In this document: in pieces, positions 129-6,166 of the stretch
Numbering within the stretch: the stretch's first letter is position 1
How the letters are laid out: the number at the start of each line of letters is the position of its first letter
Assembly: GCA_020721005.1 (NCBI GenBank)
Contig: DYNP01000007.1
Coordinates: 1 to 64,000, forward strand
Length of the DNA stretch: 64,000 nucleotides
Direction: 5' to 3'
Origin: Thiomargarita sp.
GTDB lineage: Bacteria > Pseudomonadota > Gammaproteobacteria > Beggiatoales > Beggiatoaceae
Notes under the pieces: model-generated
What the model was told of the DNA's origin: nothing
Seen by the model: the letters and a program-made list of their open reading frames with translations, nothing else
The model's database searches: none
Position numbers and translations under genes: made by a program

Positions 129-956
129 TTAGGGAGCTAACTTTAAAGGCACCCAATTTGACCAAGCTTTGCGGGAACCTACTTCTTTAGCGCCTCCCTC
201 CCAAACCGCAAAAGCCATTTCAGTGGCTTGATCAGGGGCCAAGTTGGGACTGTTAATTCCTCCGCCTGACAGAGGTAAAGTAATAATTACCCGCCAAGTC
301 CCTTCCTTCCAAGCGCCCCGTCCATTGCCTTGCTGTTCCGGTTTAACAGTAAGCGTGCCCCAGCCTTCAGCAATTTGATCTAAGACGGGACTGCTGTCTT
401 GATGCGAGACTGGATTGCCCAAACCCAAAGCTCCACTGTAGGGCTTCGCATCGCTGGCGCGCAATATTTTGTCAGGATAAAGATCCACTAAAGCATTGGG
501 ATAGAGGTCTTTTAGAGTCATATTGCCTTGATCCAAATCTCGTTGTAAGGCGGCGCGCCATTGTAAAATATTGACTCGACCTTTGGGATTGCCCATCATG
601 GGACTGGCTGATTTTTCCAACGGCAGTTGGATGGCGACTTGATCTCCATATTGATCAGTGAGGGACCAATCATTTTCTTGAGGATCTGCCCATTCCAATA
701 ATACACCCAACCATTGACCATTGTGGGCAGTTTTCACTTTAAGTTCCGAGACGGCGGGTTTGACATTGAATGGCAACACTACGTTCTGTGGTAACATGGG
801 AACAGTGACAGCAGGAATAGTCTCCCAGATTTTGTCAGCCACGTCCAACATGGGACCTTGACCGGCCACTTTTGTAGCTGTTAACTGGTCCTCAGCCATA
901 CCATTGATTGAGAAACCCAATGTTATCAAGAAGGTCAACAAATTACGCAAGTTCAT
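129..956 (-). CDS. nxrC: Haem-binding gamma subunit of Nxr-like complex (EB_dh/NxrC type)
   Basis: A 275-residue protein, third gene of the molybdoenzyme operon. The start at 956 was chosen because it gives a clean Sec signal peptide (MNLRNLLTFLITLGFSINGM then AED) and has GGAGG 5-6 bases upstream; the frame stays open further upstream but overlaps the beta gene. The mature part matches the general layout of the ethylbenzene dehydrogenase/DMSO reductase type II haem-b subunit family: a beta-rich domain with LGVLLEWAD, a middle LQWRAALQRD and a C-terminal TWRVIITLPL segment. Such subunits carry electrons between the Fe-S beta subunit and a periplasmic cytochrome. The axial ligands (Met and Lys in the family) were not assigned. 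It lies 16 bases after the beta gene. Name by family analogy; function moderately sure. Confidence 0.8.
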   Translation of the reverse strand: MNLRNLLTFLITLGFSINGMAEDQLTATKVAGQGPMLDVADKIWETIPAVTVPMLPQNVVLPFNVKPAVSELKVKTAHNGQWLGVLLEWADPQENDWSLTDQYGDQVAIQLPLEKSASPMMGNPKGRVNILQWRAALQRDLDQGNMTLKDLYPNALVDLYPDKILRASDAKPYSGALGLGNPVSHQDSSPVLDQIAEGWGTLTVKPEQQGNGRGAWKEGTWRVIITLPLSGGGINSPNLAPDQATEMAFAVWEGGAKEVGSRKAWSNWVPLKLAP

Positions 957-972
957 GAAATTCCTCCCAAAT

Positions 973-2100
973 TTAAGTGATGTTGGTGCGATAGGTCTGA
1001 TGTTTGTCATCAAAAATCGCCCGAATATGGATGGGTTCGCGCAATGGCACTCGTACCACTTCCACTCCTTTTTCATCAAATCCCAATGCCTGTCCATTTT
1101 CCACTTTAAAGTGATGTAGAATTTCTGGGGTGGCGCCAAACAGTAACAGGGCGGCCAACAGACGTTGATCATCTTTGGCAGTGCGATAAACTTTCATCGC
1201 CTGTTCCACGTTTTTGCCAAACATTTGATAGAGGTAGGCAGGGGGAACGTGGATGGGGGGAATGTAGTAAGTGTTGGGTTCCAAACCAAATTGTGGATAG
1301 AGTGGCAGGGCCACTTTGGCAATATGAATCAGATAGTCCATAGGACTGTCTTCACGGGCTTTGTCTGGAGTGGTGGTGAAGCCTTGAAGACGAATTTTAC
1401 CAATACAAGTGATGGTGCATTGGGTTTGACGACCACTTTCCACCGCCGGATAGCAACCAATACATTTTTCCGAGACTCGAGTCATGGGATTGAAAAAGGT
1501 CTTCTTGTAAGGACAACCTTTGACACATTCCCGATAACCCCGGCAACGGTTTTGGTCTAAGAGCACGATGCCATCTTCTGGACGTTTGTAGATGACTTGA
1601 CGCGGGCAAGAGCCTAGGCAAGCAGGATAGGTGCAGTGATTGCAAATGCGTGGCAGGTAATACATCCATTGCATGTGGGGACCGTATAAAAAGGCACCTT
1701 GTTCCATCATGCCCAAGGAATCGTCTTCACCAATGTTGGGATGGGCATAGTCTACATCTTCGGGTAGATAGCCCAGAATTTTTTCACCAGAAGGGGCAGA
1801 TTCAAACAGAGTTTTTCCGTTGTAAACATCCCCTCCAATTTCTTGGACGCCATGTTTGTTGAGAATGTTGACATCCCAACCCAATGGATAGAAGCCAAAG
1901 GGTTTGGTCTCTACATTATTCCAAAGCATGGATTCTTGACCGCGGCCGCTGGTCCAGGTGGTTTTGCAAGCAACTGTGCAGGTTTGGCATGAAATACATT
2001 TGTTGGTGTCTAAAATCATTGCAAATTGTTTGGAGGGACGCACACCTTCATAGATATAGTCCATTTCCCGGCCAATTTGCCAGTTATACACTTTGGGCAT
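973..2100 (-). CDS. nxrB: Iron-sulfur beta subunit, NarH/NxrB-like
   Basis: A 375-residue electron-transfer subunit with four Fe-S cluster motifs. C35, C38, C41, C45; C153, C156, C161, C165; C186, Y189, C192, C196; and C213, C216, C228, C232. In the third motif the usual second Cys is a Tyr (CRGYREC), where NarH has Trp. This is the known signature of the [3Fe-4S] site in the NarH/NxrB/SerB group. There is no signal peptide; in the type II DMSO reductase family the beta subunit is exported with the Tat-bearing alpha subunit. AGGAG precedes the start by 7-8 bases. It lies between the alpha and gamma genes, with 31 bases to alpha. It could equally belong to a selenate, chlorate or dimethylsulfide-type enzyme, but the large alpha partner favours Nxr/Nar. 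Confidence 0.9.
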   Translation of the reverse strand: MPKVYNWQIGREMDYIYEGVRPSKQFAMILDTNKCISCQTCTVACKTTWTSGRGQESMLWNNVETKPFGFYPLGWDVNILNKHGVQEIGGDVYNGKTLFESAPSGEKILGYLPEDVDYAHPNIGEDDSLGMMEQGAFLYGPHMQWMYYLPRICNHCTYPACLGSCPRQVIYKRPEDGIVLLDQNRCRGYRECVKGCPYKKTFFNPMTRVSEKCIGCYPAVESGRQTQCTITCIGKIRLQGFTTTPDKAREDSPMDYLIHIAKVALPLYPQFGLEPNTYYIPPIHVPPAYLYQMFGKNVEQAMKVYRTAKDDQRLLAALLLFGATPEILHHFKVENGQALGFDEKGVEVVRVPLREPIHIRAIFDDKHQTYRTNIT

Positions 2101-2131
2101 TTGAGTGATCTCCTGTGGTTAATTAGACCGG

Positions 2132-5100
2132 TTAAGCTTTGCTGACTTTGACAAAGCCACCTTGTAAGTAGTTTTTGAATTCTGCGTTCTCATAAGTGGG
2201 ACGCAAACCCAGAGCTGCAGGTCTCCATAAACCTTGACCGTTTAATCCACCTTCTTCCGCTTTGGTGAATTTGGCAATGGATTCCCGAGGTGCTCCGGTG
2301 ACACAATGGACGTCAACGTTAAAGCCTTTGGTGATTTCATTGGTCCAAGATTTACGGCTGATCAGGGTGGCAGTTTGGTGAGTGGGTTTCAGCCAGCTGC
2401 GGGTTAAACTTTGATGACCCCCACTGCGGAACAGAGACTGGTAGTGAGTTTCTGGGTTTTTGGCTGCTCCATCGGGACGAGTTTCCAGTCCCTTGATAGA
2501 ACCTGGAGTGGCCATGTAACCATTAAACCACATACGAGTGATTCCCATGGGAGTGCCGGGATAGTAACGAGCCCGGGCAATGAGACGAGCCACTTTGTAT
2601 TCGGCTTGGCGAGCGGGATCATTCCAACCGCGGAATGGCAGGTCATTGGGATCGCCATCAATCCAAACATAGTCTCCATCTTCAACACCGAGTTTTTTGG
2701 CGTCCATGGGATGAATGTCAACATACATTTCACCAGTCCCAGGTGTGCGTTTGTCTCGACGGTAGATATCGCCAAAAGGTCCAAATAACATGGACATGAA
2801 GTCAGTATCAATGGGCATGGTGTGTGCACCATGACGGTATTTTGGAGTATGGAACACACGGTCCCAACCTTGTTCCCGTAAAGGATGTTGGGAGGTCAAC
2901 AGATGGGCACTGTCATGAGTAGTGTTGCGCATTTGCCGGGTAATATGAGTCCGATCATCTTCTGCAATTCCCCAATCAGCTGGACGTTTGGGTCGAATTG
3001 CCGGGTGCTCAGCGGCCAGAATGGCGCAGGGTTCATAGAAGGTGGCGTCAGAGGGTTCCCGGTGAACAACGAGATTTTCTCCGGCTTCAACAAATTCCAA
3101 TTCTGGACGGTAGAATTCTAAACGCCCTGTTTTGGTGTACCAAGGTTTGGATTCATGAACTTGTTCATAACTGTTGATGCGAGGATAGGTGCGGGTATTT
3201 AACAGGCAGGGAATGCCTTGTTGACCCAGGCGTTCGATGTCGGTGAAACGGTAGCCTTTGAGCACTCCAGAATTGTCAATGACCCGTTGTAGATAAACCT
3301 CGGCTTGACCTTGGGCGATGAAATGCCAATGTTGTTCAAAGCGGGGCTCTTCGGTGAGTTGGGCCAGTTTACGTGCCACTCCCAAATAGGTCTCATTGTC
3401 AGAAACGGTTTCAAAACTGCGTTTGATGGGAGTTTTGGGATAGGGTTGTAAGAAGGGATTGCTGTTGGACGCGGTCATGTCTGGATATTTGAATTCCATC
3501 CAGGAGTCGACTCCATATACAATGTCACTGAATTCGCAAGAGGCAGTCCACCACCATTCGTTATAGACTACGCATTCGGCTTTGGGTAAGGTGTTGAATA
3601 CCACATCATAGAAGCCTTTCTGGTTGCCCAAACTGGAGTTGGAGTTGACTTGCCAGATGGTTTTGGTGGGAGTGGGTACGTGCTTGCCTGTGGTGATGGT
3701 TTTGTTGCCAGCTTTAACCAAACGTTCTCCATTGGCCCAATAGTGCATGGATTCTGGCCGCAGATAATATTTGGTTTTGATGGGACCGCTGGGATCGGTT
3801 TGTGGGTGAAATGGATCTTCAATAGTGTATAAGGGAATACCTGCAAATAGGGTATTTTTATAAGTTCCCGCATAGCTGCCGACATTGCCACCGTGATTGC
3901 CTAAGCTGCCAGCCAAAGCGGCAACGAGGAAAATGGCTCGGTCTTTGTTGTCATTGTTCCAGAATTGGTTAACACCCATGCCACAAGCAAACAGGGTTTT
4001 GCCCTGGCTGTTGGCAATATCTTTGGCCAAACTGATGACAGAGTCTCGAGGTGCCCAGGTGATTTTTTCAACTTGCTCTGGAGTGCAGTTGCTGTTCAGA
4101 TACTGTTGAGTCAGATCGAATACAGGGCGCACTTCCACTGCAGTCCCATCCAGGGTTTGTACCGTCATAGAGCCAGTCAAAGCCGGTTCAATACCCAAGG
4201 CTGTGAAATGTTCTCCCAATTGGTCATGGCTGATTGCCACTGGTTTTTGGGTTTTGGTGTCCCAAAATACAAAGTCGGCAAATTCTGACAGTAATTCTTC
4301 GGGAATCTGCACACCTTTTTGTTTAAAAGTCGGGTCGGCTTTGCTGCCAGTGGGAATGACTTGGGTCCAATTGCTGGGTTGAGCGTTTTGATGGTTGGAG
4401 AAGAGGTCACTGGCTTTTAGACGTTCCAATGTGTCCATGCGCACCAGGGAAGGTAAATCAGTGTAGCGTTTGACAAAGTCGACATTGAATAGGTTCTCAC
4501 TGATCATGACTTGGGCAATTCCCAAGGCTAAAGCGGGATCGGTGCCGGGTCGAATGACGATGACTTCATCACATTTGGAAGCGGTGGCAGAATATTCCAC
4601 GGAGATGGTCACGGTCTTAGCTCCCTTGAGACGAGCTTCGGTAAGCCAGTGACTGTCAGGCATTTTGGTGGTGATCCAGTTCATGCCCCAAGCAATGATA
4701 AGATTGGCATTCTCGGTGTCACAAAGTTCAAAGTCATTGGTTTGTTCGCCGGTGACCATGGGGTGACCGGGGGGTAGATCCGTGTGGAAGGAATAAGAGT
4801 CCCAAGAGCCTGAGCCTTTGGCTTCTTCCGGGGGAACTTTTCGTATGTGATGATCCAAAAGGGCCATGCTGTTGCCCATGCGGAAGGCACCGAAAATTCG
4901 CACCGCACCTTGTTTGGCCATGCCACCTCGGAATTTGAGTACTCGAGTACCGGCACCTTCAGCGGCTGCCACCATATCTGGATCGTAACCTTGGGCCAGT
5001 AAACGGGCTTGTCCTTGTTCTCCAGAGTAAGTTTCAGCGATATTTTTGAGGGCTTTGGCATGATATTCAAAGGCTTGTTCATGGGGAACTTTGACCCAGC

Positions 5101-5614
5101 TGTCCCAACCGCGACGCATTAATTCCGCAGGTGCAGCTCCTGTATTGGAGTCACGGGGAAAACCGTCATCGACCCATTGTTTGAAGCCTTTGCGTAAAAA
5201 GGCGCCGTTAACACGACGGTCTCCATAGAAGCGGCGGGCAAGAACGAGTCCCTTTTGACAGCAGCGGGGGTCCCAGCGATGGGAGGTTTGATTGCCTTCG
5301 AGATCGGTGGCTTTGCCATATCCGAAGGTGGGTTCGATACGCACCACAATGTTGTTTTTGACAAAAGCGTTGAGTAGGCAGTTGTGGGTGTCATTGGGAC
5401 AGCACATGAATACGAATTTCTTGTCATGGCGGAAAATGTCCCGGTAGATTCGTTCCCAGTCACGATGGGGATATTCTGATAGGGGATTTGCGACGGAAAC
5501 GGGTTGCAGGTATTGATATTCTGCAAACAGTGAGTTGGAAGCCGCTCCTAGGCCAGCTGCACCGGCCATTTTCAGGAAACGGCGTCGTGAGGAGTTGAAA
5601 GGGGATTGAGACAT
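2132..5614 (-). CDS. nxrA: Tat-exported molybdopterin oxidoreductase alpha subunit, NxrA/NarG-like
   Basis: A 1160-residue catalytic subunit. The start at 5614 follows CGGAG with a suitable gap; an upstream TTG would add nine residues without a better ribosome site. Residues 9-15 (SRRRFLK) then AGAAGLGAA form a Tat signal, so the enzyme should be periplasmic. The FS0 region has C71, D75, C79 (CCPNDTHNC) and a Cys pair at 118-119, a CxxxDxxxC register replacing the HxxxCxxxC of cytoplasmic NarG. The segment FHTDLPPGHPMVTGEQTND includes the probable Mo-ligand Asp near 294. Length (about 1150) and these motifs resemble the periplasmic nitrite oxidoreductases of Nitrospira and anammox bacteria more than the roughly 900-residue selenate or perchlorate enzymes. 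The reaction direction (nitrite oxidation or nitrate reduction) cannot be read from sequence. No NarJ/TorD-type chaperone or NarI gene lies beside it. Confidence 0.88.
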   Translation of the reverse strand: MSQSPFNSSRRRFLKMAGAAGLGAASNSLFAEYQYLQPVSVANPLSEYPHRDWERIYRDIFRHDKKFVFMCCPNDTHNCLLNAFVKNNIVVRIEPTFGYGKATDLEGNQTSHRWDPRCCQKGLVLARRFYGDRRVNGAFLRKGFKQWVDDGFPRDSNTGAAPAELMRRGWDSWVKVPHEQAFEYHAKALKNIAETYSGEQGQARLLAQGYDPDMVAAAEGAGTRVLKFRGGMAKQGAVRIFGAFRMGNSMALLDHHIRKVPPEEAKGSGSWDSYSFHTDLPPGHPMVTGEQTNDFELCDTENANLIIAWGMNWITTKMPDSHWLTEARLKGAKTVTISVEYSATASKCDEVIVIRPGTDPALALGIAQVMISENLFNVDFVKRYTDLPSLVRMDTLERLKASDLFSNHQNAQPSNWTQVIPTGSKADPTFKQKGVQIPEELLSEFADFVFWDTKTQKPVAISHDQLGEHFTALGIEPALTGSMTVQTLDGTAVEVRPVFDLTQQYLNSNCTPEQVEKITWAPRDSVISLAKDIANSQGKTLFACGMGVNQFWNNDNKDRAIFLVAALAGSLGNHGGNVGSYAGTYKNTLFAGIPLYTIEDPFHPQTDPSGPIKTKYYLRPESMHYWANGERLVKAGNKTITTGKHVPTPTKTIWQVNSNSSLGNQKGFYDVVFNTLPKAECVVYNEWWWTASCEFSDIVYGVDSWMEFKYPDMTASNSNPFLQPYPKTPIKRSFETVSDNETYLGVARKLAQLTEEPRFEQHWHFIAQGQAEVYLQRVIDNSGVLKGYRFTDIERLGQQGIPCLLNTRTYPRINSYEQVHESKPWYTKTGRLEFYRPELEFVEAGENLVVHREPSDATFYEPCAILAAEHPAIRPKRPADWGIAEDDRTHITRQMRNTTHDSAHLLTSQHPLREQGWDRVFHTPKYRHGAHTMPIDTDFMSMLFGPFGDIYRRDKRTPGTGEMYVDIHPMDAKKLGVEDGDYVWIDGDPNDLPFRGWNDPARQAEYKVARLIARARYYPGTPMGITRMWFNGYMATPGSIKGLETRPDGAAKNPETHYQSLFRSGGHQSLTRSWLKPTHQTATLISRKSWTNEITKGFNVDVHCVTGAPRESIAKFTKAEEGGLNGQGLWRPAALGLRPTYENAEFKNYLQGGFVKVSKA

Positions 5615-5711
5615 GTTTGGCTCCGATACTGGTTTTTTCAATGGAACTGAGTAAGGTCAATGGAGAGCATGTGTACACAATTTTCGGAAAAAATACCCTT
5701 AAAGGTGTATA

Positions 5712-5734
5712 AAACTGGCCAAAGGGGCCAGTTT
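5712..5734 (-). promoter_or_regulatory. Leader stem-loop upstream of nxrA
   Basis: A 9-base-pair perfect stem (AAACTGGCC / GGCCAGTTT) with a 5-base loop, about 100 bases before the nxrA start. On the minus strand it is followed by TATAC after the TTT of the stem, so it is only weakly terminator-like. It could be an attenuator or an mRNA-stabilising 5' hairpin. Confidence 0.45.
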
Positions 5735-5872: not shown

Positions 5873-5910
5873 AAAAAAAAGGTAAGATTGTCGATTGACA
5901 ATCCTACCTT
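5873..5910 (-). terminator. Rho-independent terminator after the 47-residue gene
   Basis: On the minus strand a 14-bp stem (AAGGTAGGATTGTC / GACAATCTTACCTT, one G-U pair) with a 4-base loop is followed by a run of eight or more T. It lies 40 bases after the stop of the small gene at 5950-6093. It would separate that gene from the nxr operon. Confidence 0.85.
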
Positions 5911-5949
5911 CATAATTTCCCTTATTTAGGGAAGGATAATGTTAGCCGG

Positions 5950-6093
5950 TTATTGAGTTGCCCCAATGGCTTGCTTGGGAAGTGCGCAACTTTTACTGAT
6001 TCCACAATAAATGGCATATCCGAGTATACTGCCTAATACGCCTATGTTCACGAGCATGAGGATGTAAGGGATTAAGATGGCTGGATTTTCCAT
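5950..6093 (-). CDS. Small membrane protein of unknown function (47 aa)
   Basis: The gene encodes a 47-residue protein starting MENPAILIPYILMLVNIGVL. One long hydrophobic segment spans about residues 5-33, followed by a short polar tail with Cys30 and Cys36. AAGGAG lies 7 bases before the ATG, a perfect sigma-70 promoter lies 45-73 bases upstream, and a strong terminator follows. It therefore looks like a monocistronic, well-expressed gene. It is immediately upstream of, and on the same strand as, the Nxr-like operon. I do not recognise the family. A membrane-anchored accessory of a respiratory complex is one guess; nothing in the sequence proves it. Confidence 0.75.
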   Translation of the reverse strand: MENPAILIPYILMLVNIGVLGSILGYAIYCGISKSCALPKQAIGATQ

Positions 6094-6137
6094 GAGTGAC
6101 TCCTTTATAGAGTTTGAGTATGAAAGAATATAATAAT

Positions 6138-6166
6138 ATTATAATATTATAATTTTCTAATGTCAA
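6138..6166 (-). promoter_or_regulatory. Perfect-consensus sigma-70 promoter
   Basis: On the minus strand TTGACA (6161-6166), a 17-base spacer, then TATAAT (6138-6143): a full match to both hexamers at the optimal distance. Predicted transcription start is near 6131, giving a roughly 38-base leader to the 47-residue gene. Confidence 0.85.

Follow-up and report, generated by a model that had tools for sequence, protein, structure and literature searches.

The window analysed here is a 64,000-nucleotide stretch of a Thiomargarita sp. contig (DYNP01000007.1, positions 1 to 64,000). It contains a small gene that lies just upstream of nxrA on the same strand, and next to this gene in the window lie a PAS sensor and the Nxr-like ABC operon. 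The operon at 129-5641 is of the type II DMSO-reductase family, with alpha, beta and gamma subunits, and the score of its alpha subunit stays well short of the cut-offs for NarG, EbdA and type II enzymes in general. The features of the locus are as follows:

6138..6166, minus strand: promoter TTGACA-N17-TATAAT, 12/12 to the sigma-70 consensus
6166-6161 and 6143-6138, minus strand: -35 (TTGACA) and -10 (TATAAT) elements, spacer of 17 nt
6125..6146, minus strand: AT-rich block TATTATAATATTATTATATTCT, conserved, which covers the -10 and the sequence immediately downstream; candidate operator
6105-6100, minus strand: ribosome binding site AAGGAG, 6 nt before the ATG at 6093, read from the sequence
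5950..6093, minus strand: 47-aa single-helix membrane protein MENPAILIPYILMLVNIGVLGSILGYAIYCGISKSCALPKQAIGATQ, supported by homologues, pS far above pN and a predicted helix
5878..5911, minus strand: intrinsic terminator from the terminator scan, 15-pair stem, 4-nt loop, then T8
5783-5770, minus strand: FNR/DNR-like box TTGATCCAGGTCAA, upstream of the Nxr-like operon, past the terminator of the small gene

The open reading frame (6093-5950) comprises 47 codons and a TAA stop, and the predicted transcript is about 260 nt long. The earlier note had described a complete stand-alone unit with a perfect promoter, an AAGGAG ribosome site and a terminator, and all of these elements were recovered on the minus strand between 6166 and 5878; the terminator is present as claimed, but its stem has 15 pairs by the scan and not 14. 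Terminators of comparable strength are located 3' of the homologous gene in two related genomes, G007 and G028.

That the unit encodes a protein is indicated by comparison with these relatives. Conservation of the reading frame, which had been set beforehand as a refutable point, was borne out by homologue searches and by codon-level selection: between homologues, pS ranges from 0.58 to 0.82 against a pN of 0.14 to 0.37, the differences are concentrated at third codon positions, and these comparisons show clear purifying selection at the codon level. A short unit with so strong a promoter and terminator could also be a noncoding or regulatory RNA in which the reading frame is incidental. The whole transcript does fold strongly (z -4.07), but when only the stretch between the start site and the stop codon is taken, the RNA folds no differently from shuffled versions (z 0.12), so that the fold is due to the terminator region, and Rfam gave no match for the unit. 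An RNA whose structure rather than its codons is conserved, the other refutation that had been named, is thus contradicted, and an RNA-only unit was rejected as extremely improbable, given the codon-level selection and the unstructured coding RNA.

Clear homologues were found among 58 relatives in G007 (60%), G023 (two tandem copies), G028 and G020. Profile searches extended this to 12 of the 43 Beggiatoales genomes, 10 of them with strong matches; these 43 genomes represent one family, the whole order in the collection searched. No homologue was detected in about 365 other Gammaproteobacteria sampled. Named carriers are Thiotrichaceae bacterium S06.Bin195 and one Thiomargarita MAG, and it is from these two that the order was taken to be Beggiatoales. 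The gene is lacking from 31 of the 43 genomes, and this patchy presence argues against a core role. The protein had gone unrecognised in the earlier note, and searches of Pfam, NCBIfam, PHROGs and PDB produced no significant hit (nothing below E 0.99 in the PDB profile search); an origin as a phage or plasmid gene was also considered and dropped, as no credible match was found. This is a genuine small gene, lineage-restricted to Beggiatoales, and its predicted product is a membrane microprotein of a known kind that forms a new family.

AlphaFold2 predicts one helix covering residues 4-33 (mean pLDDT 78.7), in agreement with the one-helix protein with two cysteines that had been described; the Cys pair is C30 and C36. 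M1, P9, N16, Y26, C30 and C36 are retained in the homologues, with E2, N3, Y10 and M13 conserved as well in the close ones. The more divergent paralogues retain a P-N-G-Y core while the cysteines give way to His-rich or other tails, and the Cys pair is therefore not essential to the wider family. Conservation along the helix follows a heptad periodicity at 102.9 degrees (p 0.0014 in the core set, 0.0029 in the wide set), compared with p 0.06 and 0.11 at the plain 100-degree angle. The conserved face has a mean of 0.86 against 0.38 elsewhere, the face having been read off the same alignment. This periodicity suggests that the helix packs with a partner or with itself. In nearly all members the N-tail is acidic and the C-tail basic. 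The positive-inside rule relates the charge of the flanking segments to membrane topology, and the acidic N-tail and the lysine after the helix accordingly point to a protein that is probably oriented N-out/C-in in the inner membrane.

A small hydrophobic protein of this kind invites comparison with the toxins of type I toxin-antitoxin loci, whose features we took from the literature (PMC8309996) and in which a membrane-depolarising hydrophobic peptide is checked by an antisense RNA. Like Hok, TisB, Ldr and Ibs, the protein is small (under 60 residues), hydrophobic and present in tandem duplicates (in G023, G036, G011 and G030); its one transmembrane helix, its cysteines (compare HokB) and its stand-alone gene also fit. 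It differs from them in that no antisense RNA element was found and the mRNA has no special structure: no antisense promoter stood out in sequence scans of the homologous loci, the Shine-Dalgarno sequence is not deeply sequestered, the terminator-less mRNA folds no better than shuffles, and Rfam gave no match. There is also no plasmid or phage homologue, and one face of the helix is conserved. We consider a toxin unlikely.

The promoter is rare, as the earlier note had proposed for the window. The exact string occurs at four sites in the 4.05-Mb genome, against two for the reversed-pattern control, and the three other sites precede tRNA-Met, 16S rRNA and tRNA-Arg, so that outside the small gene the string precedes only tRNA and rRNA genes in this Thiomargarita genome. 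G028 carries the same string 20 times (control 2), mostly before open reading frames, and the association with stable RNAs is therefore particular to the genome of the window. An equivalent promoter precedes the homologues in G028 (12/12), G007 (11/12) and G023 (10/12), where the -35 is kept at the same 17-nt spacing; this spacing is not kept in G020. From its promoter the small gene is likely to be highly expressed, and if expressed as predicted, its product would count as one of the cell's more abundant membrane proteins. Abundance predicted from a promoter of the stable-RNA class, restriction to Beggiatoales and the presence of a Thiomargarita MAG among the carriers would all suit a structural protein of a membrane compartment specific to this order, such as the sulfur-globule or vacuole membrane. 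Its absence from 31 of the 43 genomes speaks against this, no compartment-linked neighbours were seen and direct evidence is lacking, which makes such a role very unlikely.

Five genomes share the 22-bp block at the -10, which lies 25-35 nt before the ATG of the small gene. It scores 100/110 across the five, whereas shuffles reach 78.5 +/- 1.3 (maximum 82 in 60 shuffles), and it is conserved though the synonymous sites of the gene are near saturation. The exact block occurs once in each of the five genomes, always at the small gene; since the block itself defines the search pattern, only its absence elsewhere is informative. A wider regulon was rejected, as exact matches occur only at the small gene in these five genomes and looser sites come in about control numbers. 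The block may serve as an operator through which the small gene is switched; resemblance alone suggested a candidate ArsR/BigR operator responsive to sulfide.

The position of the gene beside nxr raises the question of whether it serves the adjacent molybdoenzyme. Small membrane subunits are known from TorE/NapE and CydX (PMC6134056), and the protein could be a regulator or accessory subunit dedicated to the Nxr/NarG-like enzyme, acting as a TorE/NapE-like crutch. Its place just upstream of nxrA on the same strand is consistent with this, as is the distribution of the Nxr-like alpha subunit: of the 10 genomes that carry a strong homologue of the small protein, 8 also encode this subunit, against 14 among all 43 (naive p 0.0007). 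The tree, however, leaves only two independent pairs, so this co-occurrence is not separable from phylogeny, and linkage on this ground was rejected; G007 (99% complete) moreover has the protein and no Nxr match. The terminator stem (5911-5878) lies between the two genes, which upholds the separation from nxr that had been claimed. The gene is not upstream of nxrA in any other genome examined, including G028, where it lies apart from nxr despite 77% identity of the alpha subunit. Shared neighbours within several kb occur only within genus g12 and between the two members of genus g8, the latter sharing one FolC-like open reading frame, named by eye. Most nxr-like operons have upstream FNR-type boxes of their own, such as TTGATCTAAATCAA, which match the box in the window. 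With synteny not conserved and such boxes present, the small gene and the operon are probably independent, the relevance to nxr at which the earlier note had hinted finds no support, and the link is probably incidental. A dedicated Nxr subunit is thus quite unlikely. In the nxrA leader, a second 9-bp stem, AAACTGGCC...GGCCAGTTT, is found at 5712-5734 with a short T-run.

The protein nonetheless resembles TorE/NapE in its roughly 50 residues, its single transmembrane helix, one face of which carries the conserved residues, and, in the Thiomargarita window genome only, its gene beside a molybdoenzyme. It differs in having no NapE/TorE profile match in Pfam and NCBIfam at E <= 1 and in its stand-alone promoter and terminator; among the family-annotated neighbours, those in the window, no torC/napC synteny was seen. 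With CydX, KdpF and AcrZ it shares size, a single helix and probable partner packing, but it is lineage-restricted, matches no profile, and has no recognised partner encoded beside it. The best inference by analogy is that it would pack in the manner of TorE/NapE/CydX without being a member of those families.

The computations establish coding selection, one transmembrane helix with one conserved face, a strong conserved promoter and independence from the neighbours. On balance, we favour an abundant Beggiatoales-specific inner-membrane microprotein whose conserved face packs on itself or on a partner. The small gene would yield an abundant 47-residue inner-membrane protein, possibly switched through the block at its -10, and the face P9-M13-N16-L20-I23-(Y26)-A27-C30 would serve for self-packing or for packing against a membrane enzyme or transporter, the putative partner then being stabilised or tuned. 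C30 and C36, at the cytoplasmic edge, could provide a redox- or metal-responsive spot or a disulfide link. A search for candidate partners by neighbourhood found none, the neighbourhoods differing between genera. A more specific version, in which a new highly expressed lineage-specific family forms a membrane oligomer with a Cys/His redox- or metal-sensing C-tail and a dedicated promoter operator, is conceivable although we hold it to be rather improbable.

We contend that the giant sulfur bacteria and their relatives keep an undescribed membrane-microprotein family that profile libraries have missed. Related microproteins occur in tandem in the sister genomes G011 and G030 (L061:3750-4221; L062), with 37-38 and about 55 residues, the longer ones having His-containing C-tails. 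Paralogues of 54-55 residues in G032 and G016 (L039, L040) end in GHFHH C-tails, with possible metal binding, and an AT-rich promoter-like block lies about 140-160 nt upstream of them.
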